DNA of 64,000 bases. Origin: Hyphomicrobium sulfonivorans. GTDB lineage: Bacteria > Pseudomonadota > Alphaproteobacteria > Rhizobiales > Hyphomicrobiaceae. Below the pieces are notes generated by a model that saw nothing but the letters and a program-made list of their open reading frames with translations, ran no database searches and was not told the origin of the DNA. This document shows positions 11,454 to 33,557 of this stretch, one piece after another; position 1 is the stretch's first letter; every line of letters begins with the position of its first letter. The position numbers were made by a program, and so were the translations under genes. The stretch spans positions 558,001 to 622,000 of the forward strand of contig NZ_PZPO01000004.1 in the NCBI RefSeq assembly GCF_013306565.1. The letters run 5' to 3'.

Positions 11454-11542
11454 CCGGCACCCCCTCCTGAAGTTCGGACACCCGTTAACCATTCGTAAAC
11501 CTCTTAGCATGACATTTCGTTAACCAACCTCAAGAGGAATAC

Positions 11543-12037
11543 ATGGATACGCTGGCAGTCTTTGACCGGACGCCGACGGGGCTTTCCGAAGCGAAGAACG
11601 ATACCGGCCGCACAGCGTTCTGCGGCCCTTATGTTCTTTCGGCGATTACCGGTTATCCGATCTCGAAAATCGAAGACATTATCCGCACGCACCGGCTGCA
11701 CCCGGACGGCACGCCTGTGAAGGGCACCGGTTCGGAGGACGTCGCGGCCGCGCTCGCGCACTTCGGCTACGGCATGACGCTGAAAGAGACGTACATGACG
11801 AAGCCGCGCAAGGAGCGTCCAACGCTCTGGACGTGGATGCAGAAGCCGCGCAACGTCTGGAAGCACTACATCCTGGCCGTTCACAAGGGCAAGGAAGGGC
11901 ACTGGATTCTCGTGAAGGGTGTGAAGATGTGCGACACCTACACCGAAGGTCGGTGGACGTTCGTCGTCGACGGGCCTCATCGCGGTGCGCGCATCATGGA
12001 AGTGTTCGAGGTCGGGCGAAAGCACGACTACGCCTGA
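11543..12037 (+). CDS. Small protein with a C39/papain-like Cys-His arrangement, function unknown
   Basis: 164 residues, ATG preceded by AGAGGA at five bases. No signal peptide or membrane segment. A conserved-looking FCGPYVLSAITGYPI motif places Cys27 at the N-terminus of a helix. GHWILVKG places His120 at the start of a strand, followed by acidic residues (D131, D143). The order Cys - about 90 residues - His - Asp is that of C39/papain-like peptidase folds. Similar small proteins occur in alphaproteobacterial genomes and phages, as I recall, without a known role. An enzyme role is inference. The gene stands alone, with its own terminator 25 bp downstream. Confidence 0.75.
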   Translation: MDTLAVFDRTPTGLSEAKNDTGRTAFCGPYVLSAITGYPISKIEDIIRTHRLHPDGTPVKGTGSEDVAAALAHFGYGMTLKETYMTKPRKERPTLWTWMQKPRNVWKHYILAVHKGKEGHWILVKGVKMCDTYTEGRWTFVVDGPHRGARIMEVFEVGRKHDYA

Positions 12038-12062
12038 AGCCTGTTGCTATGATCGCATACGA

Positions 12063-12100
12063 AAAACGGCGCCATCCAAATGGACGGCGCCGTTTTCTTT
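12063..12100 (+). terminator. Bidirectional terminator between the convergent C39-like and outer-membrane genes
   Basis: A 15-bp stem with one mismatch (arms 12063-12077 and 12082-12096, loop AAAT), flanked by A and T runs on both sides (TTTTCTTT on plus, TTTTT on minus). It serves the gene ending at 12037 and the minus-strand gene ending at 12129. Confidence 0.9.
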
Positions 12101-12128
12101 AGCCGCGGATTGCCCGCACCGACTTATG

Positions 12129-13880
12129 TCAGTCGAAGCGGTAGGTCAGTTCGCCGAGAATACCGATCCGCTCTGAATCGAGTTTCGCATTCTGATGGCG
12201 CTGCGGAGCTGGAACAGGGTTCGGCGCGTCATAGGTTCTGCGGAAACTGCCTGCCTTCGTGAACGTGCCCCAGTAGCGGGCACCAACACCCAGGCTGATG
12301 TTCTCGGTCACATCGTAGGACAGCATCGCCTCGATCTGAGCGCCGGTACCGTAGCCGGTCAAAGGATTGATGCTGGCGATGGCGGGCGTGTTGCCGAAGT
12401 AATGGTGATCGCGTCCCGTCACATGCACATAGGGCAGATAGGCCGCTTCGGCGCTGACCTTCAGGCCGGGCACGAGATAAAACTCGCCCGCAGCGCCCAG
12501 GCGCATCGACTGCCAGCGCGCCTCCTGATCGATGATCGCGTGTCCGGTTCCTGCAACCGGTCCGCCCTCAGCCGCTGAGCACGGGCCAATCGCGTTGGCG
12601 GTCTGCCGGCAACCGTAGGCGCTGATCTCTTCTTTGTAGAAGTTGTATCCAACAAACGCGCCGAACCGATAATTCGCCGTGCGCCAGAAGTCGTAACCGA
12701 CGTCGATCGTACCGTAGAGCGGAACATCGCCGGATGCTGAGCTAAGCGTGTTCGTATAGGGCACCACACCGACGTTGCCCGGGCCCGGGATGCCGAAGTC
12801 CTCGTCGTTCATCTTGCCGCCGTGGATGCCACCGCCGCCAATGAAGCCCTTGGCGAACAGATTCCATGGCGCCGAAACACGGCCGAACGCTTCGCCGGTG
12901 CTGGCTTCAATGCCGCCGTAGGTCAGGCGCGAGATCGAGGTTGTCGGATCCGCTGTGCCCTTGAACAGACCGAGGTCGTACTTGTGCCGCCCCCAGCTGT
13001 ACCAGTAGCGGCCGCCGAGATCGAAGGTGAAGCCGTTCAGCGCCATCGTCGACTGGCGGACCGGTGCTTCCGCGACGCCATCGGCCAGAACGCCGTTGCC
13101 GAAGCGATAGTTGAGGCCGATCTTGAACAGATGCATTTCCTGGGAAACGCTGCCCTGCCGCGCCGGAACAGTGGCTGTAATCGCGCCAGCATTATCCACG
13201 AACGCGCTTGGCATCAGGGTAACGGAACTGGTGCCGAAGTTCAGGTAGTCATATTCGGCGGCGAGCGACCAGTTGCCGGTCAGCGCGTATTCGGTTCCTG
13301 CGCCCAGCGTCCAGCCCCAGCGCTGCAGGCTTTCCGTGCGCGAACCAATGGGGTTGCCGCCGGCGCCCAATGTGGCGTCATTGATTGCCGTGTGCAGTTC
13401 GCCGCTCATCCAGGCAGCGCCGGCTTTACCGTAGATCAGGCCACGGCCCGCCTCGCCCACCGTCACGCCAAGCTTGCCGGTCAGCGTTCCGAAGGCATCC
13501 GTTTCCACGCGGCAGGTGGAGTTCATGAAGGAGCCCGAGAGCGCCGAGCAGGTGCCGGTGCCAGCATCGTCGGGGAAGCTTACGTCCGCCTCCAGCCCAT
13601 AGACCATGTTGCCGGATTGAAAGCTGTAGCCGATCTGGACGCCGGCAAGCGGCGCCGGGCTGATCAGCGGATTACCGAACGTCGAGGGGCCGGCGGAATC
13701 GGAAACGTCCGTCAGGATCGCGCCACCGCCAAGGTGCGCACCGACATAAAGGCCGCTCCAGGTGAACGGCGCCCCGGCTCCGGCGGCAACCGCCATCTCG
13801 TCCGCCAACGCCGTGCCCGGTAGCGTGCAAGCTAAAATGCAGGCTGCCATATGCAGACGGGCCCGGCTCAGCGATGTCAT
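12129..13880 (-). CDS. Double-barrel outer membrane protein: Omp25-like barrel fused to an omptin/Pom-like barrel
   Basis: 583 residues. A Sec signal peptide (1-26, ending ALA) is followed by a domain starting FTWSGLYVGAHLGG and ending FKIGLNYRF (about 39-260), which is a complete Omp25/Omp31-type 8-strand barrel with its own terminal aromatic strand. A second domain (about 279-583) starts ALNGFTFDLGGRYWYSWGRH, continues with LTYGGIEASTGEAFGRV and ends GELTYRFD. It resembles barrels found in other Hyphomicrobiales and the omptin/Protochlamydia outer membrane protein type. GGAG precedes the ATG. No gene partner is visible: it is convergent with the C39-like gene and divergent from the lprI-like gene. 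The function is unknown; the domain split is inferred from motifs. Confidence 0.85.
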   Translation of the reverse strand: MTSLSRARLHMAACILACTLPGTALADEMAVAAGAGAPFTWSGLYVGAHLGGGAILTDVSDSAGPSTFGNPLISPAPLAGVQIGYSFQSGNMVYGLEADVSFPDDAGTGTCSALSGSFMNSTCRVETDAFGTLTGKLGVTVGEAGRGLIYGKAGAAWMSGELHTAINDATLGAGGNPIGSRTESLQRWGWTLGAGTEYALTGNWSLAAEYDYLNFGTSSVTLMPSAFVDNAGAITATVPARQGSVSQEMHLFKIGLNYRFGNGVLADGVAEAPVRQSTMALNGFTFDLGGRYWYSWGRHKYDLGLFKGTADPTTSISRLTYGGIEASTGEAFGRVSAPWNLFAKGFIGGGGIHGGKMNDEDFGIPGPGNVGVVPYTNTLSSASGDVPLYGTIDVGYDFWRTANYRFGAFVGYNFYKEEISAYGCRQTANAIGPCSAAEGGPVAGTGHAIIDQEARWQSMRLGAAGEFYLVPGLKVSAEAAYLPYVHVTGRDHHYFGNTPAIASINPLTGYGTGAQIEAMLSYDVTENISLGVGARYWGTFTKAGSFRRTYDAPNPVPAPQRHQNAKLDSERIGILGELTYRFD

Positions 13881-14009
13881 TGGTATCTCCGCGAATGATG
13901 AGAGCGGACGCCACTATGTGTTTATCTTCTCTTGCTAGATGATTCGCGGAATAGCTTTCAATCAGCCGCTGGCAGCCTGGCGGCGTGTACAGCGGAGAAT
14001 TGAACCGGC

Positions 14010-14489
14010 ATGTCATGGATCAAAGCGTTTTGCGTTGTAGGTGGCATCGCCCTTCTCTCGCCTGTTGCCAGCGCAGCCTCAGACGACGCCTCAACGATCA
14101 CGACCTGCTTGCGTGAGATGGAGCAGTCCCAGAAGGACGCGCACGCCTGCATCGGCCGCGTGTCTGACCCGTGCAGCGAGACGCCCGAGGGCCAGTCGAC
14201 GCCGGGCACGGTCGCGTGCACGATGCGCGAAACGGAAGTTTGGGATAAGCTGCTGAATGAAGAGTACAAGCGCCTGCTGGCGCTCGTCGGCGCTGAAACC
14301 GCCAACGATGTGCGCAAGGCGCAGCGCATCTGGCTGACGGCGCGCGACGCTGACTGCCGCGTGCCATATCAATTCTATAATGGCGGAACGATCGTGCAGA
14401 TACTGGGCGCTCAGTGCGAGCGCGACCACACCGCCAACCGCGCCATTCTCATCCAGTCATGGCGCGGTATGGCTGAGGGTAAAGAGTAG
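14010..14489 (+). CDS. LprI-family (DUF1311) exported protein
   Basis: 159 residues. A Sec signal peptide (about 1-22, SPVASA) is followed by a helical, Cys-bearing domain typical of the LprI family: ACTMRETEVWDKLLNEEYKRL and VRKAQRIWLTARDADC. Family members include lysozyme inhibitors of i-type/c-type lysozyme in mycobacteria, but most bacterial members are untested. Six cysteines are present after the signal (C33, C49, C56, C70, C116, C135), consistent with periplasmic disulfides. The gene converges on efp, with only 8 bp between the stops and no terminator seen between them. Confidence 0.85.
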   Translation: MSWIKAFCVVGGIALLSPVASAASDDASTITTCLREMEQSQKDAHACIGRVSDPCSETPEGQSTPGTVACTMRETEVWDKLLNEEYKRLLALVGAETANDVRKAQRIWLTARDADCRVPYQFYNGGTIVQILGAQCERDHTANRAILIQSWRGMAEGKE

Positions 14490-14497
14490 CGAAGGCG

Positions 14498-15067
14498 TCA
14501 GTCCTTCGCGCGCTCGACGTACGAGCCGTCGGCCGTCATGACGACAACGCGCGTGCCCGCTCCGATATGCGGCGGCACCATCACGCGTGCGCCATTGGAA
14601 AGCTTAGCCGGCTTATAGGAAGACGAGGCGGTCTGACCCTTCACCACCGGATCCGCTTCAACGATTTCGAACGTCACGCGCTGCGGCAGCTCGATCGCGA
14701 TCGGCACGCCCTCATGCAGCGACAGCGTGCAGGTCATGCCTTCCTGCAGCCACTGGGCCTGATCGCCTATCACGTCGCGCGAGACGGTGATCTGGTCGTA
14801 GGTTTCAGGGTGCATGAACGTGTAGCCGATCTCGTCTTCGTAGAGATAGTTGTAGTCCTTTTCCTCAAGGTAGGCGCGCTCGACCTGATCGGTGGTGCGA
14901 TAGCGCTCCGTTACCTTCACGCCATCGGCAATGCGGCGCATTTCAAGATGGGTGACCGGCGTGCCCTTGCCGGGATGAATATTCTCGGCATGGATGACGA
15001 CGGCGAGCTTGCCTTCGAGATCGAGCACGTTGCCCTTGCGCACCGAAGAGGCGATGACCTTAGCCAC
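14498..15067 (-). CDS. efp: Elongation factor P, GTG start
   Basis: 189 residues. Binds ribosomes stalled at polyproline motifs between the P and E sites. The GTG at 15067 is chosen because GGAG lies six bases upstream and the resulting N-terminus ([13 protein letters not shown]) places the conserved HPGKG lysine at K34, the residue modified in E. coli EF-P. The ATG at 15079 would move it to 38. The three OB-like domains are present: KOW-like 1-65, central about 70-130, C-terminal about 135-189. The epmA (+15260) and epmB (+18850) homologues nearby indicate that K34 is beta-lysylated. Divergent from epmA across about 190 bp. Confidence 0.95.
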
Positions 15068-15259
15068 AGAGTTCTCCATTAATTCAAAAGGGGCCGGACC
15101 GGCGCTCGGGGGTGCGCTTCCTGCGGCCAATAGCGGTAAGTTTCGGCGCTCTCATACCCTTTCCAGGGCCAAACGCCAAGGCGCACCCGGCGCCGGAAGC
15201 CGACATTACCGCACCATGCCCCCCTGCTCCCGGGCGCCGCAATGGATTATGCAGGCACC

Positions 15260-16318
15260 ATGAGCACTGACAGACCCTGGTGGAACGCCGAAGTCCACGC
15301 CGACCGCCGCCCGGCCCTGCTGGCCCGCGGGCGTATCAAGAGCGCCATGCGCGCCTGGTTCGATGAGCGCGGCTTCGTGGAGGTGGAAACCGCCATTCTC
15401 CAGACCTCCCCCGGCAATGAGGCGCATCTGCACGCCTACCGTACCGAACAGATCGGCACCGACCTGGAGCGGCGCGCCCTCTATCTGCACACCTCGCCGG
15501 AATTTGCCTGCAAGAAGCTGCTGGCCGCCGGCGAGAAGAAAATTTTTACCTTCGCGCCGGTGTTCCGCAACCGCGAGCGTGGCCCCCTGCACGCGCCCGA
15601 ATTCACCATGCTGGAATGGTATCGCGCCGATGAGCCATATACAGCCGTGATGGATGACTGCGGCGAACTGCTGAAGCTGGCGGTAAAGACTGCCGGTGCA
15701 TCGCTGGTGTCCTGGCGCGGCCACACCGCTGACGCTCGCGCTGCCCCCGAGCAGCTCTCGGTGGCTGAAGCATTCAGCCGTTATGCCGGCATAGACCTGA
15801 TGGCGACGATCAAGCCCGCAGGCAACGACCGGGAGGCACTGGCCACGGCTGCGACGGCCGCCGGCATCGCACCGCGTGCCGATGACGATTGGGCCGACAT
15901 CTTCGCCAAGGTGCTGACCGCACTCGTCGAGCCCAAGCTCGGACTGGGGCGCGCGACACTACTTACGCATTATCCAGCATCGGAAGCGCCTCTCGCCCGA
16001 GCCAGCGATGACGACGCGCGCCTGGCAGAGCGGTTCGAGATGTATTGCTGCGGTATCGAGCTGGCTAACGGCTTCGGTGAACTGACTGACCCGCAAGCCC
16101 AGCGCCGGTTGCTGACAGCGGAGATGGATCGCAAGCAAGAGCGTTACGGTGAGCGCTATCCGGTGGACGACGACTTCATCGCCGCGCTTGCGCATATGCC
16201 GGCCGCATCGGGGTGTGCGATGGGCTTCGACCGCGTGGTGATGCTGGCAACTGGCGCAACGCGTATCGATCAGATCCTATGGACGCCGCAAACCGCCGGA
16301 GAGGTGATTGCGTCCTAG
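15260..16318 (+). CDS. epmA: EpmA (GenX/PoxA): EF-P (R)-beta-lysine ligase
   Basis: 352 residues. A truncated class II lysyl-tRNA synthetase homologue without an anticodon-binding domain; it activates beta-lysine and ligates it to EF-P. Visible motifs: motif 1 region RGFVEVETAILQTSPGNEAH, motif 2 FAPVFRNRERGPLHAPEFTM, motif 3 GCAMGFDRVVML, and the lysine-pocket segment ANGFGELTDP. The start MSTDRPWW is preferred over the ATG at 15242, which adds six residues; neither has a strong Shine-Dalgarno. The TAG stop (16316-16318) lies inside the terminal CTAGAG of the downstream repeat. Divergently arranged with its substrate gene efp. Confidence 0.93.
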   Translation: MSTDRPWWNAEVHADRRPALLARGRIKSAMRAWFDERGFVEVETAILQTSPGNEAHLHAYRTEQIGTDLERRALYLHTSPEFACKKLLAAGEKKIFTFAPVFRNRERGPLHAPEFTMLEWYRADEPYTAVMDDCGELLKLAVKTAGASLVSWRGHTADARAAPEQLSVAEAFSRYAGIDLMATIKPAGNDREALATAATAAGIAPRADDDWADIFAKVLTALVEPKLGLGRATLLTHYPASEAPLARASDDDARLAERFEMYCCGIELANGFGELTDPQAQRRLLTAEMDRKQERYGERYPVDDDFIAALAHMPAASGCAMGFDRVVMLATGATRIDQILWTPQTAGEVIAS

Positions 16319-22586: not shown

Positions 22587-23513
22587 ATGCTGTTAAAACC
22601 AACGGTTTTAGCAAGTGTTCTGCTGTGTGCTCTGTTGTTGCCCGGAGCGGCGACAGCCGGCGAATTACCGGCTGTTTCCGGTCCAAACGGCAAACTCAGT
22701 GTGGAAGGCGGCACATTCGATGATGAAGCCGCCGGCCTGGCGCTCGGCAGCTTTTCGCTCCCCCTCGGACATAATCTTGGCGTGCAGTTTGACGGCGCGG
22801 TCGGCAACGTCGATGGTGACGTTTTGGGTGGCGGCGGCGTGCATCTGTTCACGCGAGATCCGTCCAGCTATCTGCTCGGCGTGTATGGCAGCTATCACAC
22901 TTGGGATTCCATCGACATCTGGCGCATCGCTGCCGAAGCCGAACTTTACCTCGGGCGATTCACAGTTTCCGCGCTGGCCGGATATGAGAACATCGACATG
23001 CCTTCGCTGGCGAGCGGCTTGCCGGTGCTGACGCAGGACGAAAAAAGCTTCTTCGGCATCGGCGACGTTGCCTATTACATCAACGATGATTTCAAGATCT
23101 ATGGCGGCTATCGCTACGTTGCCGAGACCAGCCTCGGTGCAGCGGGTGCTGAATACCTGCTGCGCGATCACGGTGTGCCCGTGTCGCTGTTCGCCCGCGG
23201 AGATTTTGGCAACAGCGACTTCAACAGCATCACCGGCGGTGTGAAGATCTATCTCAGCGACGACCGCAACAAATCGCTGATCGACCGCAACCGCCGCGAC
23301 GATCCTGAAATTTATGTGCCGGTGTTTCCGAAGGTGGTTACACAGACGGCAAAGCAGCAAGGATCCAACCAATGTGTTGTCGGTCCAAGCCCTGATTATA
23401 AGGTTGCGTCGAACTTCAGCTGTACGTGCCCTTCCGGCACGCCACTCTCCGGCCAGCAGCCGCAATTCATTCCAGCATTGGGCGGCTTCTATACGTGCGG
23501 AAATCCGGTCTAA
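22587..23513 (+). CDS. Exported beta-barrel-like protein with a Cys-bearing tail, tandem paralogue 1
   Basis: 308 residues. Signal peptide 1-25 (AATAG), then VSGPNGKLSVEGG, GSFSLPLGHNLGVQFDGAVG and LFTRDPSSYLLGVYGSYHTW. These alternating strands with Gly/aromatic turns fit a small outer-membrane barrel family that I recall as hypothetical in Hyphomicrobiales. After about residue 250 comes a linker (DDPEIYVPVFPKVV) and a distinct 40-50-residue tail with four Cys in the pattern C-x16-C-x-C-x23-C. GGAG lies upstream of the ATG. The downstream neighbour is a close paralogue. The function is unknown; the pair probably arose by duplication. Confidence 0.8.
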   Translation: MLLKPTVLASVLLCALLLPGAATAGELPAVSGPNGKLSVEGGTFDDEAAGLALGSFSLPLGHNLGVQFDGAVGNVDGDVLGGGGVHLFTRDPSSYLLGVYGSYHTWDSIDIWRIAAEAELYLGRFTVSALAGYENIDMPSLASGLPVLTQDEKSFFGIGDVAYYINDDFKIYGGYRYVAETSLGAAGAEYLLRDHGVPVSLFARGDFGNSDFNSITGGVKIYLSDDRNKSLIDRNRRDDPEIYVPVFPKVVTQTAKQQGSNQCVVGPSPDYKVASNFSCTCPSGTPLSGQQPQFIPALGGFYTCGNPV

Positions 23514-23669: not shown

Positions 23670-24611
23670 ATGACCATGCTGGCAATGGCGAAGCCTGTCC
23701 TGTTGGCTCTCCTCGTGGGTAGCTCGATTGCAGTAGCCGCATCCGCAAATGACTTATCCGCCGTGTCTGGACCAAACGGAAAAGTCAGCGTTGAAGGTGG
23801 CTCGGTTGACGACAGCGGCGCAGGCATCGCCACCGGCAGTCTCTCATTACCGCTTGGCCATACGTTCGGCTTGCAGGCCGATGGCGCGGTTGGTTCCATC
23901 GACGGCCAGATCATGGGCGGCGGCGGGCTTCACCTCTTTACCCGCGATCCATCCAGCTATCTGCTAGGCGTGTTCGGCAGCTATCACACCTGGGATTCCA
24001 TCGGCATCTGGCGCGTTGCCGGCGAAGCCGAATTGTATCTCCAGCGCTTCACGCTGTCCGGCCTTGCCGGTTACGAATACATCGATTTTCCGCGGCTTTC
24101 CGATGGTCTGGCCGTACTCAACAAAGACGATGGAAACTTTTTCGGCCACGTCGATGCGGCCTACTACATCACCGACAATTTCAAGGTTTCGGCAGGCTAT
24201 CGCTATGTCAGCGAGATGAGCCTTGGTTCGGCGGGCGCCGAATATCTTCTATCGGGAACCGATGTGCCGGTTTCGCTGTTTGCACGCAGCGACTTCGGCC
24301 GCAGCGATTATGCAAGCATCACAGGCGGCCTGAAGATTTATCTCAGCGGCGACAACAACAAGTCGCTGATCGATCGCAACCGCCAAGACGATCCGGAAGC
24401 GTATCTGCCTGTGTTCCCGAAGATCGTGAAGGCGCAATCAACGCCTGCGCCTGCGGGTCCCACCTACTGCTCAGTCGATAGTTCGTACCACGCCATCGTG
24501 TTGTCTGGCGCACCCAATTGTCTCTGCCCGGCCGGATCGATGCTGGAAGATTTGACACCGTATGACGACACTGTCGACCATGGTGTCTTCCGCTGCGGCG
24601 CGCCCATCTAG
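23670..24611 (+). CDS. Exported beta-barrel-like protein with a Cys-bearing tail, tandem paralogue 2
   Basis: 313 residues, alignable along nearly the whole length with the product of the gene 156 bp upstream. Both share VSGPNGK, SLPLGH, LFTRDPSSYLLGV, GSYHTWDSI and YRYVSE/AE segments, and both have a tail introduced by DNNKSLIDRNRQDDPEAYLP (paralogue 1 carries the variant DRNKSLIDRNRRDDPEIYVP). The tail again has four Cys (C-x17-C-x-C-x27-C), implying that the Cys pattern is under constraint while its spacing varies. Signal peptide about 1-27 (AVAASAN). The start ATG at 23670 could instead be the ATG two codons later. Probably outer-membrane; role unknown. Confidence 0.8.
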   Translation: MTMLAMAKPVLLALLVGSSIAVAASANDLSAVSGPNGKVSVEGGSVDDSGAGIATGSLSLPLGHTFGLQADGAVGSIDGQIMGGGGLHLFTRDPSSYLLGVFGSYHTWDSIGIWRVAGEAELYLQRFTLSGLAGYEYIDFPRLSDGLAVLNKDDGNFFGHVDAAYYITDNFKVSAGYRYVSEMSLGSAGAEYLLSGTDVPVSLFARSDFGRSDYASITGGLKIYLSGDNNKSLIDRNRQDDPEAYLPVFPKIVKAQSTPAPAGPTYCSVDSSYHAIVLSGAPNCLCPAGSMLEDLTPYDDTVDHGVFRCGAPI

Positions 24612-24715: not shown

Positions 24716-25690
24716 ATGACATCGCACCTGAGCGGACGACATCTGGTCGGCGACATCGGCGCCACGAATGCGCGTTTTGCATTAGCTGACGCCGATGGAA
24801 AGCTGTCGCATTTCGCAAGCTTCCTGTGCAGCAATCACTGTAACCTCGATGCGGCGATTGCAGCCTATCTCACCGACGTGCGCGCGCCTGCACCGAGACG
24901 CGCCGTTCTGGCAGTGGCGACAACACCCGACGGCGATCAGGTTCGTTTCACCAATAACCCCTGGTCGTTTTCAATCGTGCATCTGGCGCAGCGCACCGGC
25001 ATCGGCGACTTACACGTCATCAACGACTTTCACGCCAACGCGCTGGCGCTACCCTATCTGCAGAATGAAGATGTCTTGCAGATCGGCGGCGGCAATCCAG
25101 CAACCTATGCTCCCATGGCAGTGCTCGGCCCCGGCTCCGGCCTCGGTGTCAGCGCGTGCGTATGGTCGGGCGAGCGCTACATCGCGTTGCCGGGTGAAGG
25201 CGGCCACGTGACCATGGCCGCAGGTGACAGTCGCGAAGCTGCCGTGCTGGATATTCTGCGCGCTCGTTTCGGGCACGTCTCGGCCGAGCGGCTGCTGTCC
25301 GGGCCGGGCATCACCAACATCTATGCATCACTGTGCGTCATCGATGGGCTGGGTGAGGCTCAACTGACACCTGCCGCCATCTGCGAGTCCGCTCTCGCCA
25401 ACTCCGATGCACGCGCAGCCGAAGCGATCGCCATGTTCTGCGCAATGTTGGGTACTGTTGCGGGCGATGTCGCGCTGACAATCGGCTGCCGCGGCGGCAT
25501 CTATATCGCGGGCGGAATTGTGCCTCGGCTGGGCAGCCACTTCGCAGCATCGCCGTTTCGCCAGCGCTTTGAATCGAAGGGTCGCTTCAGCGACTATCTG
25601 GCGGCAATTCCAACCTATGTCATCACACGCCATGACGCAGCGCTGATCGGCGCTGCCGCCCTGATGCGCGCGCCTCGCACCGGATTGTAA
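24716..25690 (+). CDS. glk: Glucokinase (ROK-unrelated Glk family)
   Basis: 324 residues. Phosphorylates glucose with ATP in the cytoplasm. The N-terminal phosphate motif LVGDIGATNARFAL begins at residue 10. NDFHANALALPYL carries the catalytic Asp, and the LGPGSGLGV and LPGEGGHV motifs are typical of the E. coli-type Glk family. The C-terminal adenosine motif is GCRGGIYIAGGIVPRLG. The ATG at 24716 is preferred over a TTG at 24707; no strong Shine-Dalgarno is seen. It follows the two barrel paralogues by about 100 bp and may be read from the same transcript, but no functional link is evident. Confidence 0.93.
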   Translation: MTSHLSGRHLVGDIGATNARFALADADGKLSHFASFLCSNHCNLDAAIAAYLTDVRAPAPRRAVLAVATTPDGDQVRFTNNPWSFSIVHLAQRTGIGDLHVINDFHANALALPYLQNEDVLQIGGGNPATYAPMAVLGPGSGLGVSACVWSGERYIALPGEGGHVTMAAGDSREAAVLDILRARFGHVSAERLLSGPGITNIYASLCVIDGLGEAQLTPAAICESALANSDARAAEAIAMFCAMLGTVAGDVALTIGCRGGIYIAGGIVPRLGSHFAASPFRQRFESKGRFSDYLAAIPTYVITRHDAALIGAAALMRAPRTGL

Positions 25691-25695
25691 ACGAA

Positions 25696-25725
25696 AATGC
25701 CGCGCAACCGGAGCAGCGCGGCATT
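25696..25725. terminator. Hairpin between convergent glk and the NadE-like gene
   Basis: A perfect 10-bp inverted repeat AATGCCGCGC/GCGCGGCATT with a 10-base loop, 5 bp after the glk stop. The T-tract is poor on the plus strand (CACGTATTC); on the minus strand it is followed by TTCG. Confidence 0.6.
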
Positions 25726-25801
25726 CACGTATTCAAAGCGCTTGATTATATCGTCTGCCGATCAACCTAGCCGCGGCGACGTCACTGCGCCTTATTCAGC
25801 T

Positions 25802-26833
25802 TCAGGCCACTTGTCCAAAACTGCGATCGGCTTCGTCCTCATCAATCAACAGCGGCGGCTCATGCAGATAGCGCGTGGCCTTGCGCTTCGCCTCGATGTC
25901 CTGCCACACCAGCGTAACCTGCTCCTCCGTCAAGCCCGTTGCCTGCGCGACGGCTTCAGCGGTTAGCGCGTGCTCCAGCCCATAAAGGCACAGATCCATC
26001 TGCTCGTAGGGTAGCGCAAAATAGAATTCTTCCTGTGTCTGCGCCATCGACCAGGTGTCAGTCGTCGGCGGACGCTGGCGGATTTCAGCCGGGATGCCAA
26101 GTTCTTCAGCAAGCTGATAAACCTGCGACTTGTAGAGATGCGCGATCGGCTTGAAGTCGGCAGCGCCATCGCCGTTCTTCACGAAGAAGCCCTGATCGTA
26201 CTCCAGCCGGTTCGGCGTACCGGCCACGGCATAGTTCAACCGGTCGGCGTGGTAGTATTCAAGCTGCTTGCGGATGCGCTGCTTCATGTTGGTCGCTGCC
26301 ACCACCGCCTGATAAACGCCGATCGGCATCCGCGCCTCGCGGCGCTCACCGGCTGGCGTTTCAACCACAAGCTTGGTCAGGCTATAACGGTTGCCATGCA
26401 GCACGTTCGACAGAACAACCTTGCAGCTCCAATCGGAACCGAAATCCGGAAATAGCTCGCGGATGGCGCCATCGCGGCGCAGATAGCAGCCCGCGGCCGA
26501 AAGCGTCGGCGCGATATCCTCAACCACATGGCCAATGCCATAGGTCTCCGCAACCAGACGGCCGAGACGCAGGCTGTCGGGATCAGAATCCTTCTCCGGC
26601 ATCAGCACGGCCATCACGTTCTGAGGCCCGAGAGCAGCGGCGCACAGCGCTGCAGTCACGCTTGAATCGATGCCGCCGGAAAGGCCGATCACAGCACCGC
26701 GACGGCGCAAGCGACGCAGCACCTGGTTGGAAATGCCCTGCGTGATCGCGCGCACAGCCACCGCAGCATCAAGCTGCAACGTCTCACGCGAGAACTCACG
26801 ATCGACCACAGACGAAATATCAGAGCGCTGCAT
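25802..26833 (-). CDS. NadE-like ATP-dependent amide synthase (NH3-type NAD+ synthetase family)
   Basis: 343 residues. An N-type ATP pyrophosphatase domain is clear: the PP-loop GLSGGIDSSVTAAL (SGGIDSS at 52-58), VLMPEKDSDPDS, GTPNRLEYDQGFF and KNGDGAADFKPIAHLYKSQV match NAD+ synthetase. There is no glutaminase (CN-hydrolase) domain, so it would need free ammonia or an amidotransferase partner. It is about 70 residues longer than E. coli NadE, and its late motif TTDTWSMAQTQEEFYFALPY differs from the usual one. Its ATG overlaps the end of the ligase gene by 14 bp, making it the last gene of a GNAT-AsnB-ACP-ligase operon. It may be a housekeeping NadE, but the context suggests a dedicated amidation or adenylation role (inference). 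Confidence 0.85.
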   Translation of the reverse strand: MQRSDISSVVDREFSRETLQLDAAVAVRAITQGISNQVLRRLRRRGAVIGLSGGIDSSVTAALCAAALGPQNVMAVLMPEKDSDPDSLRLGRLVAETYGIGHVVEDIAPTLSAAGCYLRRDGAIRELFPDFGSDWSCKVVLSNVLHGNRYSLTKLVVETPAGERREARMPIGVYQAVVAATNMKQRIRKQLEYYHADRLNYAVAGTPNRLEYDQGFFVKNGDGAADFKPIAHLYKSQVYQLAEELGIPAEIRQRPPTTDTWSMAQTQEEFYFALPYEQMDLCLYGLEHALTAEAVAQATGLTEEQVTLVWQDIEAKRKATRYLHEPPLLIDEDEADRSFGQVA

Positions 26834-28382
26834 TCTGCCCTCTCTCGGCCTCACTGACGAGGCGACGGCTGATCTTTCCCGAGTCCGTCTTTGGCAGCGA
26901 CGGCCGGAATTCTACAAGTTTGGGAACCATGTAATCTTCAAGAAAGCGCGCGCAGTGGCGGATGACGTCCTGCGCGCCGATGTCCGTATCGGGCTCCAGT
27001 GCAACAACCGCCTTGATAGCGCTGCCCAGCACTGCATCCGGCACGCCGATGACGGCAACTTCGGCGACGCCCGGCAGCGCATAAATGACGTTCTCAACTT
27101 CCTTCGGCGGAACTTTCTCGCCGCGCGATTTGATGATGTCGTCCTTGCGACCGACAAAATAGAGGAAGCCGTCGCTGTCGGTGCGGAACAGATCGCCGGT
27201 GTAAAGCACGTGCTCCCACGGATATGGCCCCGGACGCAGCGCCTTGGCGGTTGCTTCCGGATTTTCCCAATATCCCTTCATCACGTGCGCGCCACGGATC
27301 ACCAGCTCGCCGACGACATCCGGCCCGACGCGCCGGCCCTCATCATCGACGACATAAGCTTCCGTGCCGGGAATGGCGACGCCGACAGACGAGATGCGGT
27401 TCTTAAGCTCGGTCGGCGGCAGCCACGTGCAGCGTTTGCATTCCGTCAGGCCATACATCGAATACAGCGCCACGTGTGGAAACAGCGCCTGCAGCTTTTC
27501 AATGTGCGTCGGCGGCAACGCCGCAGCGGTATTGGTGATGTAGCGCAGATGTGGCAACGCACCCGGTGCAAGGTTGCGCTGCCCTACGAGAATTGCCGCC
27601 ATCGTCGGAACGAGTGGCAGGCCCGTCACGCGCTCCTCTTCACAGCGCTTCAGAATGACTTGCGGGAACGCAAATGACTTTTCAAGTACCAGCGTGGCGC
27701 CGACCTTGATGGCCATCAGCACCTGATACAATCCGTAATCGAACGCAACCGGCAGCACGTTGAGAATGATGTCGTCGGCCGTGTTCTCAAGGTACGTCGT
27801 GATGGATGTGGCGGCTGCGACGACATTCTGATGTGTCATCATCACGCCCTTCGGGAACCCCGTCGAGCCCGACGTATAGATCAACATCGCCAGATCGACA
27901 TTGATGCCCGGTGCGCTCTGCAGCAGCGAAAACTCTGGTACTGCGAGCACATCATTCCAATGCAACGCGCCAAACCCGGCCGGCACCGATTCACCATCGG
28001 CGATCACACTGAACGCTACCGATGGCGCCGCTGCAATAGCATCCGCCGCAACAGATGCCGTCTTCTGCTGGGCAATGATCGCCTTCGCACGGCAGTTATT
28101 CAGGATGTAGCTGAGCTTATCGGTCTTGGTCGAAGGATTAACCGGACTGAAGACAGCACCGGCCTTCAAAACGGCAAAAATTGAAACAACCGCTTCAACG
28201 CTGTTGTCCAGAAACAGGACAACACGATCGCCCCTTTCGACGCCGCGATGGATCAACCCCTGCGCCAGCTCGTCAGAGATATCGTCGAGCTGGCTGTAGG
28301 TCAGGCGCCGATTGCCGGCAACGAGCGCCGTCTTATCGGGAAAGCGCATCGCACTTGCACGCAGAAACGATTCAAAGCGCAT
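26820..28382 (-). CDS. AMP-forming acyl-CoA/ACP ligase (class I adenylate-forming enzyme)
   Basis: 520 residues. The N-terminal domain contains the P-loop IYTSGSTGFPKGV (about 170-182), the YGLTE motif, and YTGDL with Asp for ribose binding. The C-terminal lid starts near GRKDDIIKSRGEKVPPKEVE and ends with the catalytic Lys region LPKTDSGKISRR. The enzyme should adenylate a carboxylic acid and load it onto CoA or, given the adjacent acyl carrier protein gene, onto its phosphopantetheine arm. The acid is unknown. The sequence resembles ligases in exosortase-A-associated and secondary-metabolite clusters. It lies 53 bp after the ACP gene and overlaps the NadE-like gene. Confidence 0.9.
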   Translation of the reverse strand: MRFESFLRASAMRFPDKTALVAGNRRLTYSQLDDISDELAQGLIHRGVERGDRVVLFLDNSVEAVVSIFAVLKAGAVFSPVNPSTKTDKLSYILNNCRAKAIIAQQKTASVAADAIAAAPSVAFSVIADGESVPAGFGALHWNDVLAVPEFSLLQSAPGINVDLAMLIYTSGSTGFPKGVMMTHQNVVAAATSITTYLENTADDIILNVLPVAFDYGLYQVLMAIKVGATLVLEKSFAFPQVILKRCEEERVTGLPLVPTMAAILVGQRNLAPGALPHLRYITNTAAALPPTHIEKLQALFPHVALYSMYGLTECKRCTWLPPTELKNRISSVGVAIPGTEAYVVDDEGRRVGPDVVGELVIRGAHVMKGYWENPEATAKALRPGPYPWEHVLYTGDLFRTDSDGFLYFVGRKDDIIKSRGEKVPPKEVENVIYALPGVAEVAVIGVPDAVLGSAIKAVVALEPDTDIGAQDVIRHCARFLEDYMVPKLVEFRPSLPKTDSGKISRRLVSEAERGQNAAL

Positions 28383-28435
28383 CGCCGTACCCCACCACCA
28401 GTTGACCGTATTTCAGAACGTGCGTTTGCGTCGGC

Positions 28436-28711
28436 TCAAACCGCAATGCCGGTAATCTTGGCGCCCTGCTTGCGAGCTACATATGCCGCAATCAGATCGA
28501 TGGAATCGAGGTTTTCCGGAACGATCTCGTCATCCTCGACGGTGATGCCGAAGTTGGTTTCAAGATGCTCCACGAGCTCCAGGATGCCGGTAGAGTCGAT
28601 GAGCCCGGCGGCGAGCAGCGATTCTTCGTTGGTCAGACCGTTTCGACCTTCGCGAAAAAGAAAGCTCGCTTCTACGAATTCGCGGATCGACGTTTTGAGT
28701 GCGTTTGACAT
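28436..28711 (-). CDS. Stand-alone acyl carrier protein
   Basis: 91 residues, from an ATG that gives a normal ACP N-terminus; the longer frame runs back into asnB. A four-helix ACP with the phosphopantetheine site at GLIDSTGILELVEHLE (D39-S40). The usual DSL is replaced by DST, as in several pathway-specific carriers, and the protein continues with NFGITVEDDEIVPENLDSI. It is not FabF-linked and is far from any fatty-acid synthesis gene, so it is probably dedicated to the product of this cluster. It sits 22 bp after asnB and 53 bp before the AMP ligase. Confidence 0.9.
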   Translation of the reverse strand: MSNALKTSIREFVEASFLFREGRNGLTNEESLLAAGLIDSTGILELVEHLETNFGITVEDDEIVPENLDSIDLIAAYVARKQGAKITGIAV

Positions 28712-28733
28712 GGTCTTGATACTCACCCGTACA

Positions 28734-30749
28734 TTACGAATTGACGGCAACCGGCGCGCGGCCGTTGCCATCAGAGTTAACTGGCTGGGACGAAGCAAGC
28801 GGCGTGCCAATGCCCGCAGATGCCTGCTGCACAAAGGTCTCGTGCCAAACCTGCGTCGACAGCACACCGACAAAAGCCAGGTTGTCCCTGAAGCCTGTCG
28901 ATGCAAATCGCGTGCACTTATTGACCAGCCGATCAACGAGCGCGCCGTCGAAATACCCCGCATCCGCAATGCTGGAGCGGCTCATACGCGTCAGCATCTC
29001 TGCTCCCGCCGCGGTGCCGACGAACGCGCGACTTTCCGGTGCGCGATAGGGCTGCTTGGGACGCCGCGCGATATCCGCCGGCAGAAGATCAGCAACGCTT
29101 TCACGCAGGATGTGCTTTTCACGCAGTCCCTTCAGCTTCAGGCGCGGCGGGATGCGCGCTGCAAATTCCATCAGGCGATGATCGAGGAACGGAAAGCGTC
29201 CTTCAACCGCGTTCGCCATAGCGACCCGATCGCCCTGCGATGACAGAATGTAGCCCGGCAACAGGTACGCACTTTCCAGATACTGCGCTTGTGAAAGCGG
29301 ATGCCAGCGCTGGAATTCAGCCGGCAACCGCTCGCGCAGATCATCCAACGCGTCGTAGTCGCCAAGTTCATCCCGCAGCTCCGCCGAGAAAAACGCCTTC
29401 GCGCCCTGGCTGGAGCGGAAGCGCGGCAGATGCGAATAGAGCGGATCGCTGATGCTGTCCTGATGGTTGCCGAAAAACGCTTCCAGATAGCGCTGCGACT
29501 GCGCATTCATGCGCGGCATATAAGGATAAAGGCGACGCAGAAGCAGCGGCCGCAAACGCGATCCCGGCTGCGCGGCACAGAAGCGGCGCACCTTGGCTTC
29601 CTTGAACACATCATAACCGGCGAACACTTCGTCAGCGCCCTCGCCCGTCATCACAACCTTGATGCCGTTTTCGTGCACCAGTCGCGACAGCATGTACATC
29701 GGCGCCGGCGCTGTACGCATCAGCGGGCGCTCGGTATGCCGGATGACATCGCCCATCACCGCCGCGATATCGTTTTCCTGGCACACCGTCACCGCGTGGT
29801 TGAGATCGAGCGCCGCAACCATCTCCTGCTGAAAGGCGCTCTCGTCGAACTCTGCGTTGGCAAACGCAACCGAGAACGAACGCAACGTGTCGGGGGTGAA
29901 TGTACGTATCGCAGCGGTGGTGATCGATGAATCCAGCCCGCCGCTGAGATACGCGCCGACCGGAACGTCAGCCCGCAACCGAATACGCACCGCGTCCAGC
30001 AGCAGCGCGCGCACTTCTTCCGTCAGGCGCGCTTCTTCCTTTGCTGATACCGGTCGGTCGTCCGCCGCATCGGGATAGTCGAAGCGCCAGTATTGATGCG
30101 TCCGCGCACCATCGTGATTGACGATCATCACGTGGCCCGGCGGCAGCTCGCTGATATTCTTGAATGGTGTGCGCGGCGCGAGCGGAAACCAGAACGTAAA
30201 CATCTGATCGAGTGCGATCGGATCAAGCTCAGCTCTGACGCCAGGCAGCGTCAACAGCGCCTTGACCTCGGACGCGAATGCGATGCCGCCGGCGCTTTCC
30301 GTATAGTAAAGCGGCCGTACACCAGCGCGATCGCGCGCCAGCACCATGCGTTGGCGTTTGCTATCCCAGATGGCGAATGCAAAGTCGCCGTTGAACATCT
30401 CGACACAGTCAGGCCCGCGCTCTTCATACAGATGCACGATCACTTCGGTGTCGGACGTTGTTTTGAAAACGTGCCCGCGCGCGATCAAGCCCTCGCGCAG
30501 TTCGACGTAGTTGAAAATTTCACCGTTGAACGAAACCCAAACCGTGCCGTCTTCGTTGCTCATCGGCTGACGGCCACCGTCGACATCGACGATGCTGAGA
30601 CGCGCATGGGCCAGCCCGGCATCGCCGTCGACATAAACGCCATCGCCGTCCGGCCCGCGATGGGCGAGCGTGCGGATCATGCGCTGCAGCTGACCGCGCT
30701 TGCGGTCAGGCGCAATCGGCAAACGATAAAAGCCGGCAATGCCGCACAT
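28734..30749 (-). CDS. AsnB-type glutamine-hydrolysing asparagine synthetase / amidotransferase
   Basis: 671 residues. Ntn glutaminase domain with the nucleophile Cys2 (MCGIAGFYR), RGPDG and FNGEIFNY. The synthetase domain has the PP-loop YLSGGLDSSITTAAI and GEGADEVFAGYDVF. The last 40 or so residues form a poorly conserved tail. Members range from true asparagine synthetases to enzymes that amidate sugars, peptides and polyketide carboxylates. The neighbours (ACP, AMP ligase, GNAT, NadE-like) argue for a pathway-specific amidotransferase, as in exosortase-A-associated clusters, though ordinary asparagine synthesis cannot be excluded. It starts 26 bp after the GNAT gene. Confidence 0.9.
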   Translation of the reverse strand: MCGIAGFYRLPIAPDRKRGQLQRMIRTLAHRGPDGDGVYVDGDAGLAHARLSIVDVDGGRQPMSNEDGTVWVSFNGEIFNYVELREGLIARGHVFKTTSDTEVIVHLYEERGPDCVEMFNGDFAFAIWDSKRQRMVLARDRAGVRPLYYTESAGGIAFASEVKALLTLPGVRAELDPIALDQMFTFWFPLAPRTPFKNISELPPGHVMIVNHDGARTHQYWRFDYPDAADDRPVSAKEEARLTEEVRALLLDAVRIRLRADVPVGAYLSGGLDSSITTAAIRTFTPDTLRSFSVAFANAEFDESAFQQEMVAALDLNHAVTVCQENDIAAVMGDVIRHTERPLMRTAPAPMYMLSRLVHENGIKVVMTGEGADEVFAGYDVFKEAKVRRFCAAQPGSRLRPLLLRRLYPYMPRMNAQSQRYLEAFFGNHQDSISDPLYSHLPRFRSSQGAKAFFSAELRDELGDYDALDDLRERLPAEFQRWHPLSQAQYLESAYLLPGYILSSQGDRVAMANAVEGRFPFLDHRLMEFAARIPPRLKLKGLREKHILRESVADLLPADIARRPKQPYRAPESRAFVGTAAGAEMLTRMSRSSIADAGYFDGALVDRLVNKCTRFASTGFRDNLAFVGVLSTQVWHETFVQQASAGIGTPLASSQPVNSDGNGRAPVAVNS

Positions 30750-30775
30750 CGTTACTCTCCCAGACGCCTGAAGCG

Positions 30776-31891
30776 TTACGCGAACTCGCCGCCGACCAAA
30801 CGAGTCCAGGACTCACCCGCGAGCCCCGTCAGCAGCGCCGGTCCACTACGTACCTCCCGCAGCAATTCCTTGTCGCGGGCATGCACCAATGTCGATGCGC
30901 CGTGGAACAACACACAGCGACGTGCAACCAGCGCATCGAGCAGGACGTCGTCCGCACGGCCACGGATGGCGACGCATCCCAGCTCCTGCGCACGGCGGAA
31001 CAGCGCATCAAGCGCGGTGCCGACGTGTTCGGGCAATGCCAACACCTGCAGAACGCGCGCGATCTGACCGCGGCGCGCATAAAACAGGTAGCAACCGACC
31101 GGCTTGCCGCTGCGGTCGAGAACGATACGACGCTGCAACACGCCATAGCGTTCTTTTGCTTCCGCATGGGTCAACAGCATTGACAGCGAAGGGGTGTGCC
31201 AGTCGGGATAGAGCGTATAGGTGCGGCTCAGCTCCGGGATCAGGCTTTCAATGTCCGCCGCCGTTGCTTCGACATCGTGCACGCCATCCTGCGCGGCGGG
31301 CAATGCAAGCGGATTACGATCCAGCCGCTGCAGCAGCATATCGAAACCCGATGCAAACGGCCGCATGAGCCCAGCCGGTCGGAACACATGCTGTGCCGCC
31401 GCAACCGCGGTTCCCGCAGGGCGCACAACGCGCAACCAGTCGAGGCTGCCGGCAGACAACTGCGAGCCACCCACCTTCTGCCACATGCGCTGCGAGATGC
31501 CGTTGGCGGTTTCGCTGAATGAAAGATCCTGCGGACCGGATAGAAAACTGCGCAACAGACGTGCGCCAGCGGTTGGGTGCAACTCTGGCTGATCGACCAT
31601 CATCGACCCAGCCACCGCTGCGCTGATGGGGCGTCCGTTGAGTTGCATCTGTCGCGACCAGATGCCTATGAAGCCGCGAACCTCGCCGGTGTTATCGGTG
31701 AACACGCGCGAACGTGGTTCTTCACCGGCACCCACGCCCGTGAAAACCACATCTTCGAAATAGCGCCGCAGCTCTGTGCTGCCGCTGCCTTTGCCGTCAC
31801 GGAACGAACGCGCAAACAGCCCCGCCAGTGCGTCGACATCGTCGCGACGGCACGGTCGGATCGCTTCCTGTTTGCCTGATGTGTAACTCAC
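30776..31891 (-). CDS. GNAT-fold acyltransferase, first gene of the AsnB-ACP-ligase operon
   Basis: 371 residues. The N-terminal GNAT-like half has AIRPCRRDDVDALAGLFARS, an early strand typical of acetyltransferases, and GFIGIWSRQMQLNGRPISAA. The C-terminal half repeats the fold more loosely: GVLQRRIVLDRSGKPVGCYL, then RVLQVLALPEHVGTALDALF. A double-GNAT arrangement is suggested, as in pathway acyltransferases that use acyl-ACP. The acetyl-CoA signature Q/RxxGxG/A is not obvious, so acyl-ACP use or a degenerate site is possible. It leads a tightly spaced operon of five genes. A roughly 480-bp upstream region should hold the promoter. Confidence 0.75.
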   Translation of the reverse strand: MSYTSGKQEAIRPCRRDDVDALAGLFARSFRDGKGSGSTELRRYFEDVVFTGVGAGEEPRSRVFTDNTGEVRGFIGIWSRQMQLNGRPISAAVAGSMMVDQPELHPTAGARLLRSFLSGPQDLSFSETANGISQRMWQKVGGSQLSAGSLDWLRVVRPAGTAVAAAQHVFRPAGLMRPFASGFDMLLQRLDRNPLALPAAQDGVHDVEATAADIESLIPELSRTYTLYPDWHTPSLSMLLTHAEAKERYGVLQRRIVLDRSGKPVGCYLFYARRGQIARVLQVLALPEHVGTALDALFRRAQELGCVAIRGRADDVLLDALVARRCVLFHGASTLVHARDKELLREVRSGPALLTGLAGESWTRLVGGEFA

Positions 31892-32375
31892 TTAACTACC
31901 TCTGCACGCGGACTGCGACAGCAGTTCCACGCCTAGCCCTGCATAGCCCGGACCAACCGTCGGTCAGCGCGACACAGACAAAGCGGCCCCTCTCGAAGGA
32001 CCGGACGGTGCGCCCAGAGTGTTGATAATTTGAATACGTCCGTTAACCGCTTCCATCGGACGAATTGACATCAATGTGGTCGCAACAAACTGATTTACAT
32101 TGATAATTCTGGATTTAGTCAGCGACTGGACTAATTGAGACCAAACGGCCCGTTTGGCTCAAATGGAACGGATTGTGAAAGCACCGTTAGGGAATCGTAA
32201 ATTCGACCGGCGGTTTTCCGCAGGAACATTTCCCAACTGCGGCAGCAACGCCGCAGGCCCTTCAGCCGGGACGCGGCATTATATCGTGGCGCGATAATAT
32301 GCGGGCGCCCACGCCAAGTTCGCGGCCGCCCGTCATCCACTCAACGCTGTTTCAAAATTGAATTGGGCGTCCCGG
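31892..32375. promoter_or_regulatory. Upstream region of the GNAT operon, A+T-rich with a 17-bp palindrome
   Basis: 484 bp without a supported gene. 32020-32140 is clearly more A+T-rich than its surroundings. At 32141-32157 lies a perfect palindrome CCAAACGG-C-CCGTTTGG, extendable by GAG...CTC with one bulged base, which looks like a dimeric regulator site. It is about 250 bp upstream of the GNAT start codon. No -35/-10 pair stands out. Confidence 0.4.
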
Positions 32376-33557
32376 TCAGGGATTGTTCCAGGCGCCCTGT
32401 GTCGGCCGCTCCTCGGCGAGGTAATAGCGGTTAACCCAGCCCTTCAGGCGGCCGTATTGCACCGGACACCAAAGGTTACGGCATGCGCCGACGATGCGGA
32501 CGCCGCGTCCATCCGGGCCGATGGCGCCAATGCGCGGATGATATTCGGATGGCCCCGTGCGCACGTTCAGGCGATCGCCAATCTGGACGTTGGATACGCG
32601 GAACGATGCCAGACGGCGGTTGCTGGCCTGCCGCGTATCTGTAGCCGGCTGCTGCCTGCGCACTTCTGGTGCGGCGGCTGGTTCAGATTCCGTATCAGCG
32701 ATGTCGTCATAGGGTCTTGTGACATTAGCCGCCGACGCCACCCTTTGCCGGGCGGCGTTCTGCTGTGCAGCCTCAGAGTTGAGGATCTGCGGCATCTCCG
32801 GCGATCCTTCAACGGCATCTGATGCACTTGCTTCGGCGCCCAGGCCGAGGCGATAGGGCTCGGGCTCCTTCGGTGTCAAAGCCGACTTCAGCCATTCGCC
32901 CAGCGCGGCGGTGGTGAAGCGCGGCGGGACTGCCAGATCGACAGGTTCATATCCATTGCGCGCAGCCGGAACATCAGTCGATGCGACGACAGTCTCTTCC
33001 TGGTTGTTCGCATCGCCAGCGGCAATCGTCGTCGGAGCAGGCTGCTTGGGTTCAGGCTGCGGTGCCGGTGCGGCAGCGGTCTGCTGCGGCGGTGCAATCG
33101 GCTGCTTTTCCGCCACCTGAGCGACGGGACGTGCCGGGGCTTGCTTTGGCTTGGCCGTCACGGCGGCAACCACGGGCTTGGCTTCGGTGATCGTAGCCGT
33201 GCCGCTTTCGCCGCTGGCTTCCGACCAGTGCACGCGATTGCCTTCACGGCGCAGAGCCATGCAGCGGGGCTTGGCGTCGAACCAGCGGAACCACTTCATG
33301 CAAAGCTTGTCGCCTTCGGTCCACCAGCGGCCGCGATCCTTGGTGGCACCGAGCGTCAGCCCCAGTGCGCCCGCTTCAGCGGACATCAGGCCGTTCGTGC
33401 CGACCTTGACCGGAATGGTCATGCGCAAAGGCGTGTCAATTTCCAGCAGCGCGCCGGGCATGGCTCGCTTGATCTCTTCGCCGGACATGCGCACCGGAGC
33501 AGCCATCGCGGCGCTCACACCTGCCAGCAAACCGACAACAGTAACCAAACGCAACAT
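32376..33557 (-). CDS. Exported SH3-domain protein
   Basis: 393 residues from the ATG after AGGGG; the frame upstream to 33629 is not credible. Signal peptide 1-19 (ends AMA). An N-terminal region has a Cys pair (GDKLCMKWFRWFDAKPRCM) and RWWTEGDKLCMKWFR, which resembles domains sensing or binding small ligands. A long low-complexity Pro/Ala/Gln linker (about 125-310) follows. A C-terminal bacterial SH3 domain (about 320-390) contains VQIGDRLNVRTGPSEYHPRI and NLWCPVQYGRLKGWVNRYYL. It is probably periplasmic and binds peptidoglycan or a protein partner. No operon partner; hrpB lies downstream of its promoter side on the same strand. Confidence 0.85.
   Translation of the reverse strand: MLRLVTVVGLLAGVSAAMAAPVRMSGEEIKRAMPGALLEIDTPLRMTIPVKVGTNGLMSAEAGALGLTLGATKDRGRWWTEGDKLCMKWFRWFDAKPRCMALRREGNRVHWSEASGESGTATITEAKPVVAAVTAKPKQAPARPVAQVAEKQPIAPPQQTAAAPAPQPEPKQPAPTTIAAGDANNQEETVVASTDVPAARNGYEPVDLAVPPRFTTAALGEWLKSALTPKEPEPYRLGLGAEASASDAVEGSPEMPQILNSEAAQQNAARQRVASAANVTRPYDDIADTESEPAAAPEVRRQQPATDTRQASNRRLASFRVSNVQIGDRLNVRTGPSEYHPRIGAIGPDGRGVRIVGACRNLWCPVQYGRLKGWVNRYYLAEERPTQGAWNNP

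Follow-up and report, generated by a model that had tools for sequence, protein, structure and literature searches.

The operon and its relatives

We analyzed a 64,000-nucleotide stretch of the Hyphomicrobium sulfonivorans genome (contig NZ_PZPO01000004.1, positions 558,001 to 622,000; hereafter, the window), which contains a putative biosynthetic operon of five genes on the minus strand. From upstream to downstream, they encode an acyltransferase with a tandem GNAT fold (30776..31891; 371 amino acids, GTG start), which was identified from its open reading frame (ORF), an AlphaFold2 model, and Foldseek; an AsnB-type glutamine amidotransferase (28734..30749; 671 amino acids), with a Cys2 glutaminase and a PP-loop synthetase; an acyl carrier protein, or ACP (28436..28711; 91 amino acids); an AMP-forming ligase (26820..28382; 520 amino acids); and a NadE-like ATP-pyrophosphatase without a glutaminase domain (25802..26833; 343 amino acids). 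All five ORFs in the window's ORF list are intact, with one terminal stop each. An earlier note, made from the sequence alone, had proposed that these genes form a compact carrier-protein pathway. The coordinates and the spacing that it gave (gaps of 26, 22, and 53 bp and an overlap of 14 bp) agree with our recomputed values, and the upstream intergenic region (31892..32375, minus strand), which it put at roughly 480 bp, spans 484 bp to the next gene. In the annotated records that we examined, the genes are named as if they belonged to primary metabolism (asparagine synthase, NAD(+) synthase).

We scanned GTDB genomes with the NadE-like protein, confirmed the matches with tblastn, and analyzed the best 80 of at least 580 stretches. 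These 80 loci were chosen via the NadE-like protein and so are biased towards its close relatives, and some are shortened by contig ends. Beside the NadE-like gene, we found the ACP in 79 of the 80 loci, the ligase in 78, AsnB in 67, and the GNAT protein in 63 (above 150 bits for the ligase and AsnB; E ≤ 1e-4 for GNAT). The check for conserved clustering that the earlier note had suggested therefore shows homologs that are not scattered. The loci are from α- and β-Proteobacteria, Anaeromyxobacter, Sandaracinaceae, Pirellulales, and other metagenome-assembled genomes, and because the gene set recurs across so many genera, the operon is not a chance arrangement. The commonest order (27 loci) is AsnB-ACP-ligase-NadE with GNAT on the opposite strand. 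The window's own order occurs in 19/80 loci; another 12/80 have AsnB-ACP-ligase-NadE with no GNAT found, and 12/80 have ACP-ligase-NadE and an opposite-strand GNAT but lack AsnB. The gene set is also present on plasmid records from Sinorhizobium, Mesorhizobium, Shinella, an unverified Roseateles, and, in a different order, Azospirillum.

Among 60 relatives of H. sulfonivorans (its own genome counted), seven encode a NadE-like protein of at least 70% identity: six of the eight members of the genus and one genome from another family. In the remaining two genus members, both of them draft assemblies (360 and 530 contigs), it was not found. All seven carriers have an additional weak match of the housekeeping type. 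Across the class, the distribution is patchy, as just 3 of 385 evenly sampled genomes have the NadE-like protein at E ≤ 1e-60 (counting our own genome, and with one match partial).

Downstream of the operon lies a convergent glucokinase gene, and the upstream neighbor, 484 bp away, encodes an SH3-domain protein. In two genomes from the same genus (G002 and G006), the operon is flanked, as judged by look, by a glucokinase-like gene and a similar upstream gene, so it appears to have been inherited in place. (In G002, an extra ORF separates the glucokinase gene from the NadE-like gene, and our gene picker overlooked the ACP.) We found no sigma-70-like site at 25500-32500, where 2.1 are expected by chance. 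The upstream gap does contain a terminator-like hairpin (32003-31984), but such hairpins are no commoner than chance across the scanned stretch. Elsewhere in the window, two adjacent and similar ORFs on the plus strand (22587-23513 and 23670-24611) look secreted and β-barrel-like by eye; they seem to be a tandem duplication, with differing C-terminal tails.

The carrier protein, the ligase, and the acyltransferase

The ACP scores 20.0 bits against the PP-binding family of Pfam, slightly under the cutoff of 20.8. Its predicted phosphopantetheine serine is Ser40, within an IDSTG motif (codon at 28592..28594 on the minus strand, by arithmetic). The earlier note had listed a carrier protein with a serine attachment site, and the serine is kept in all 80 aligned rows (79 loci plus the window).

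The ligase contains the AMP-binding domain and its C-terminal domain (Pfam), and its catalytic lysine is K503. When we compared the segment that forms the substrate pocket to the PDB, both VinN sequences (3wv4 and 3wvn) were the best matches, at E = 1.1e-37, and the sole other match below 1e-20 was at 3.5e-24. VinN, from vicenistatin biosynthesis, is described as loading 3-methylaspartate onto the stand-alone ACP VinL (PMC11284099), and as binding it as a β-amino acid via K330 and R331, in a loop that is one residue shorter than usual, along with F231, S299, and D230 (PMC11253843). D230, F231, S299, K330, and R331 of VinN align with D215, Y216, T285, K316, and R317 of our ligase. The changes from F to Y and from S to T are conservative, not identities. 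The alignment to VinN is ungapped over the shortened loop, so the ligase has all five pocket positions as well as the shorter loop of a VinN-type pocket. Given the substrate, R331 would be the residue that holds the carboxylate. Judging from these pocket residues, the acid that our ligase activates is probably aspartate-like.

By sequence, the operon appears to share with VinN/VinL a stand-alone AMP ligase, a pocket with the D/aromatic/small-polar/K/R pattern, and a stand-alone ACP. It differs in linking these to AsnB, the NadE-like protein, and GNAT in place of the decarboxylase VinO and a polyketide synthase. We noticed neither a VinO-type decarboxylase nor a polyketide synthase beside the operon, with no search aimed at either.

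Across 79 ligases (78 loci plus the window), D, T, and K are all present in 51 and all absent from 27, and one ligase has K alone. The arginine (at the position of R317) and the catalytic lysine are present in all 79. Ligases with the D and K residues (D/K ligases) are found in 50 of the 64 rows with AsnB above 300 bits, versus 1 of the 15 rows without. (Three of these 15, L050, L108, and L116, are short contigs, and two of the three have AsnB fragments.) D, T, and K thus nearly always co-occur or are jointly absent, and they track the presence of AsnB. We read this as a split of the ligases by substrate: one class, which includes the window's ligase, would act on an amino-dicarboxylate, and the other on an acid that lacks the amine.

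Some of the AsnB-less rhizobial loci have a 2-hydroxyacid dehydrogenase (7/80 loci) and a DAO-type FAD oxidase (9/80) nearby, and both are found solely in loci without the D/K pocket. In L048, for instance, a tandem GNAT gene, the dehydrogenase, and the oxidase lie upstream of the AsnB-less set (4959-8003). These neighbors could provide an alternative substrate supply, or they may be plain rhizobial synteny.

A counterpart of the ligase/ACP pair has been studied in Sinorhizobium meliloti. On pSymB of strain 1021, an operon-type ACP (1453176-1453415) lies between the orthologous ligase and AsnB. Since pSymB has just one further ACP-like match (E = 0.019), and no ligase of this type lies within 1.5 kb of it on either side, we assigned the locus tags SMb20650 (ligase) and SMb20651 (ACP) to this pair. 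The S. meliloti ligase has the same pocket motifs as ours. The two genes are reported to be cotranscribed, and the ligase to acylate its own ACP in E. coli (PMC7232532); that account treats the ligase and ACP, and we find them in an orthologous operon. A 2017 paper names SMb20651 as an ACP that needs further investigation. Both of these S. meliloti proteins have thus appeared in the literature; our literature search, which had most subscription journals outside its coverage, found no paper describing the whole five-gene unit. In S. meliloti R11 (L030, 10150-13971), unlike in KH35c, AsnB and the ligase each match two ORFs instead of one, perhaps due to sequencing errors.

The GNAT protein has no match in Pfam or NCBIfam at E ≤ 0.001. 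Its AlphaFold2 model has a tandem GNAT fold, with a predicted local distance difference test (pLDDT) score of 93.2, and the 50 Foldseek matches listed comprise GNATs, Eis-like and otherwise, along with N-myristoyltransferases. The structure thus supports the acyltransferase fold that the earlier note had named, on which sequence models are silent. From this fold, GNAT is predicted to catalyze the last step, a transfer from the ACP to an amine. In two loci (L034 12984-14090, from Azospirillum, and L110 11222-12265, from Pirellulales), a different protein of 350–370 amino acids, with no NCBIfam match, follows the NadE-like gene; it is perhaps a second type of acyltransferase with the same role.

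The amidating enzymes and a PrmC-like methyltransferase

The AsnB protein begins with MCGI and contains both GATase_7 and Asn_synthase domains, so it has the N-terminal cysteine and the domains of AsnB-class amidotransferases. It passes the equivalog model TIGR01536 (530.6 bits, cutoff 267.1), as do three further AsnB relatives in the genome, and it fails NF006949 (355.6 bits, cutoff 499). Its closest match in the PDB is a hydroxyamidotransferase (7ylz). In a phylogenetic tree of 52 rows, the 27 AsnB proteins of the operons group together in a single clade, with a support of 98 by the Shimodaira-Hasegawa-like approximate likelihood ratio test (SH-aLRT). This clade sits beside, but apart from, an AsnB type that is present in all 8 genus members that we examined. 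In H. sulfonivorans, the gene for that genus-wide type adjoins an apparent argininosuccinate synthase gene. The operon's AsnB does not cluster with it, as an asparagine synthetase B would be expected to.

The NadE-like protein belongs to NF002048/PRK00876 (505 bits, cutoff 313), a subfamily that is named NAD(+) synthase. It passes the domain model TIGR00552 (155.9 bits, cutoff 63.65) and is under the cutoffs of two equivalog models (NF010587, 177.3 of 255 bits; NF001979, 81.8 of 250 bits). In a tree, the operon-type proteins (23 rows) form a separate clade from the 19 other NadE rows compared, on a long stem (SH-aLRT 99). Because several of the comparison branches are very long and the program gave warnings, we use this tree for separateness only. 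The AlphaFold2 model (pLDDT 84.7) has an extra β insertion and leads Foldseek to ammonia-dependent NadE.

We also checked the positions that, in the numbering of E. coli NadE, contact ATP, magnesium, and deamido-NAD. In all 23 rows, we found Gly46, Ser48, Gly49, Gly50, Asp52, and Ser53 of the P-loop, as well as Arg140, Thr160, Glu165, Lys173, Asp180, Lys189, and Thr211. Position 261 is lysine in 22/23 rows. In contrast, His260 is replaced in 23/23, by alanine (16), serine (5), arginine (1), or glycine (1). A second NadE match in the genome is a 569-amino-acid frame (C7:412541), the length of a glutamine-dependent enzyme.

The earlier note had described two types of amide-forming ATP-pyrophosphatase, AsnB with a glutaminase domain (GATase_7) and the NadE-like protein without one, and this holds. 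It had also suggested placing both against housekeeping clades: both fall outside the housekeeping-type copies that we compared, and other copies of each exist in the genome. Together with the conserved linkage, these separate clades and the second NadE elsewhere in the genome support the pathway well, and we conclude that the operon is a real, conserved, and little-characterized carrier-protein pathway.

A short PrmC-like protein (METHYLTRANSFERASE) is encoded near the operon in 15 of the 80 loci, all 15 of which have D/K ligases. In H. sulfonivorans, the gene for this putative methyltransferase is on a different contig (C9:325249-325926; L137 11250-11930), beside apparent cobalamin genes. 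The protein of H. sulfonivorans has an NPPY motif, which is a mark of amide or base N-methylation. It passes the HemK family model TIGR00536 (135.9 bits, cutoff 115.5) and scores best on the PrmC model TIGR03534, but under its cutoff (166.7 of 199.1 bits) and from model position 51. Copies with at least 59% identity are found in 5 of the 60 relatives, all 5 of which are among the 7 genomes with the operon (Fisher p = 3.8e-6, which ignores kinship: all five are in one genus and are not independent). This co-occurrence suggests that the orphan methyltransferase belongs with the operon rather than with cobalamin. Elsewhere on contig C9 (L139, about 10675-16012), CRISPR-like repeats were read as ORFs near genes that resemble type I-E Cas genes by eye.

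The proposed pathway and its alternatives

We propose, with a probability of about one half, that the operon makes an aspartate-type acyl-ACP that is amidated and then transferred by GNAT to an amine, perhaps on a surface polysaccharide. The AMP ligase would adenylate aspartate or a substituted aspartate and load it onto the phosphopantetheine arm of the ACP. Because the aspartate-like acid would be bound like a β-amino acid, the distal carboxylate would be the one that is activated. AsnB and/or the NadE-like protein would convert the free carboxylate to an amide, with glutamine as the nitrogen source for AsnB. In the final step, the tandem GNAT would take the completed aminoacyl group off the ACP and attach it to an amine, for which an amino sugar in a surface polysaccharide is the most plausible candidate. 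The amide may also be N-methylated in some relatives by the short PrmC-like methyltransferase, whose gene lies in trans in H. sulfonivorans. The substrate of the NadE-like protein is the least certain part of this scheme; a nucleotide-linked carboxylate is possible.

The neighboring genes point to an amine on a polysaccharide as a possible acceptor. We called these genes with a GC-frame gene picker, which in some loci missed or mis-drew real genes (among them the ACP in L135 and, in L034 and L117, core genes), so the neighbor counts are rough. For each locus, we counted how many of seven polysaccharide families occur in the fetched flanks; five of these families were named by the Pfam matches of one representative each, and the other two, both glycosyltransferase clusters, purely by look. 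Two or more of the families are present in 22/80 loci: 20 of the 50 with a D/K ligase, 1 of the 28 others, and 1 locus without a scored ligase. The commonest non-core neighbor cluster is Wzz (21/86 loci in the neighbor clustering and 20/80 in a later count, with many of the 20 related to each other). Our genome has three Wzz matches in 3.55 Mb, or about a 2% chance per 21-kb stretch. The Wbp/Vim pathway (VimA, VimE, WbpS) is described as placing an amino acid on a deacetylated amino sugar, with an AsnB-type enzyme that makes a uronamide (PMC7468200). By description, the proposed pathway shares these two features and the polysaccharide-type genes nearby. It differs in that the accessible account of Wbp/Vim names no ACP, AMP ligase, or NadE-like protein.

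Several observations weigh against this proposal. Because 27 of the 79 ligases lack D, T, and K, the ligase substrate is not uniform across the loci. At whole length, our ligase scores highest against a gramicidin synthase (helped by the latter's two adenylation domains), and it also scores high on TIGR03098 and on fatty acyl-CoA ligase models. There are two amidating enzymes, one beyond the obvious need of an aspartyl thioester; nearly all of the NAD-synthetase contacts that we checked are kept in the NadE-like protein; and 13/80 loci have no AsnB match above 150 bits, of which 12 are rhizobial, with about 8 kb upstream of the ACP covered. Two genomes (G005 and G049) carry the operon without a close PrmC-like methyltransferase. 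As for polysaccharides, 58/80 loci have fewer than two of the families, all three Wzz matches of the genome are on contigs other than the operon's, and by eye we noticed no polysaccharide genes among the ORFs of 19000-40000.

These last points would also fit a diffusible amide or amino acid conjugate, such as a signal, osmolyte, or antibiotic, that is unconnected to polysaccharides. So would the sparse distribution (3/385 class genomes) and the ABC-transporter-like neighbor clusters, named by look, in 14 and 7 loci. Nevertheless, with Wzz the commonest non-core neighbor, we regard a free small molecule as possible but rather doubtful.

A lipid pathway, in which the ligase loads a fatty acid onto the ACP and the product of GNAT is an N-acyl amine or aminolipid, later amidated by AsnB or the NadE-like protein, is unlikely. 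Fatty acyl-CoA ligase models do score well on the ligase, although under their cutoffs; N-myristoyltransferases are among GNAT's Foldseek matches; and the ACP matches an ornithine-lipid ACP model (NF052616), far under its cutoff (55.7 of 130 bits). But the ligase pocket has the amine-binding aspartate and Lys-Arg pair of VinN, and SMb20650 is reported to be unable to substitute for FadD on oleate, whether in S. meliloti or in E. coli (PMC7232532), which disfavors long-chain fatty acids. We also considered a link to OlsH/OlsI, prompted by the weak ACP match, and rejected it, as PMC12493201 describes a GH3-type pathway instead.

A more specific form of the aspartate proposal seems to us about as improbable as the lipid pathway. 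Aspartate would be attached to the ACP through its side-chain carboxyl, and its α-carboxylate would be amidated while still on the carrier; some relatives would also N-methylate it by means of the PrmC-like enzyme, which may have been freed from ribosomal work. The tandem GNAT would pass the isoasparaginyl group to amino sugars of a surface polysaccharide, and the NadE-like protein would amidate another carboxylate, one linked to a nucleotide (for example, the uronate of a nucleotide sugar).

That the operon just combines a second NAD synthetase and a second asparagine synthetase with an ACP-ligase pair is very unlikely: the NadE-like protein has the NadE fold, passes TIGR00552, and retains most contacts, but it has its own clade and β insertion and is repeatedly found next to this ACP and ligase, the genome encodes both another NadE match and the genus-wide AsnB, and the separate clades argue against housekeeping roles. 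The earlier note had also mentioned exosortase-A-associated gene sets, a link that our results do not support. TIGR03098 is the top NCBIfam model for the ligase and TIGR03108 the second for AsnB, but both proteins are under these cutoffs (471.7 of 592.35 and 459.3 of 816.9 bits), and XrtA (TIGR03109, the sole exosortase model that we tried) has no match in the whole genome.

The VinN-like ligase pocket, the association with a PrmC-like methyltransferase, and the neighborhood of polysaccharide genes are new here. The gene set is found in most of the 80 loci and in many genera, nitrogen-fixing symbionts among them. If our proposal is correct, then SMb20651 of S. meliloti would gain a function, and these bacteria would have an unrecognized route by which an amidated amino acid passes from an ACP to a structure on the surface.

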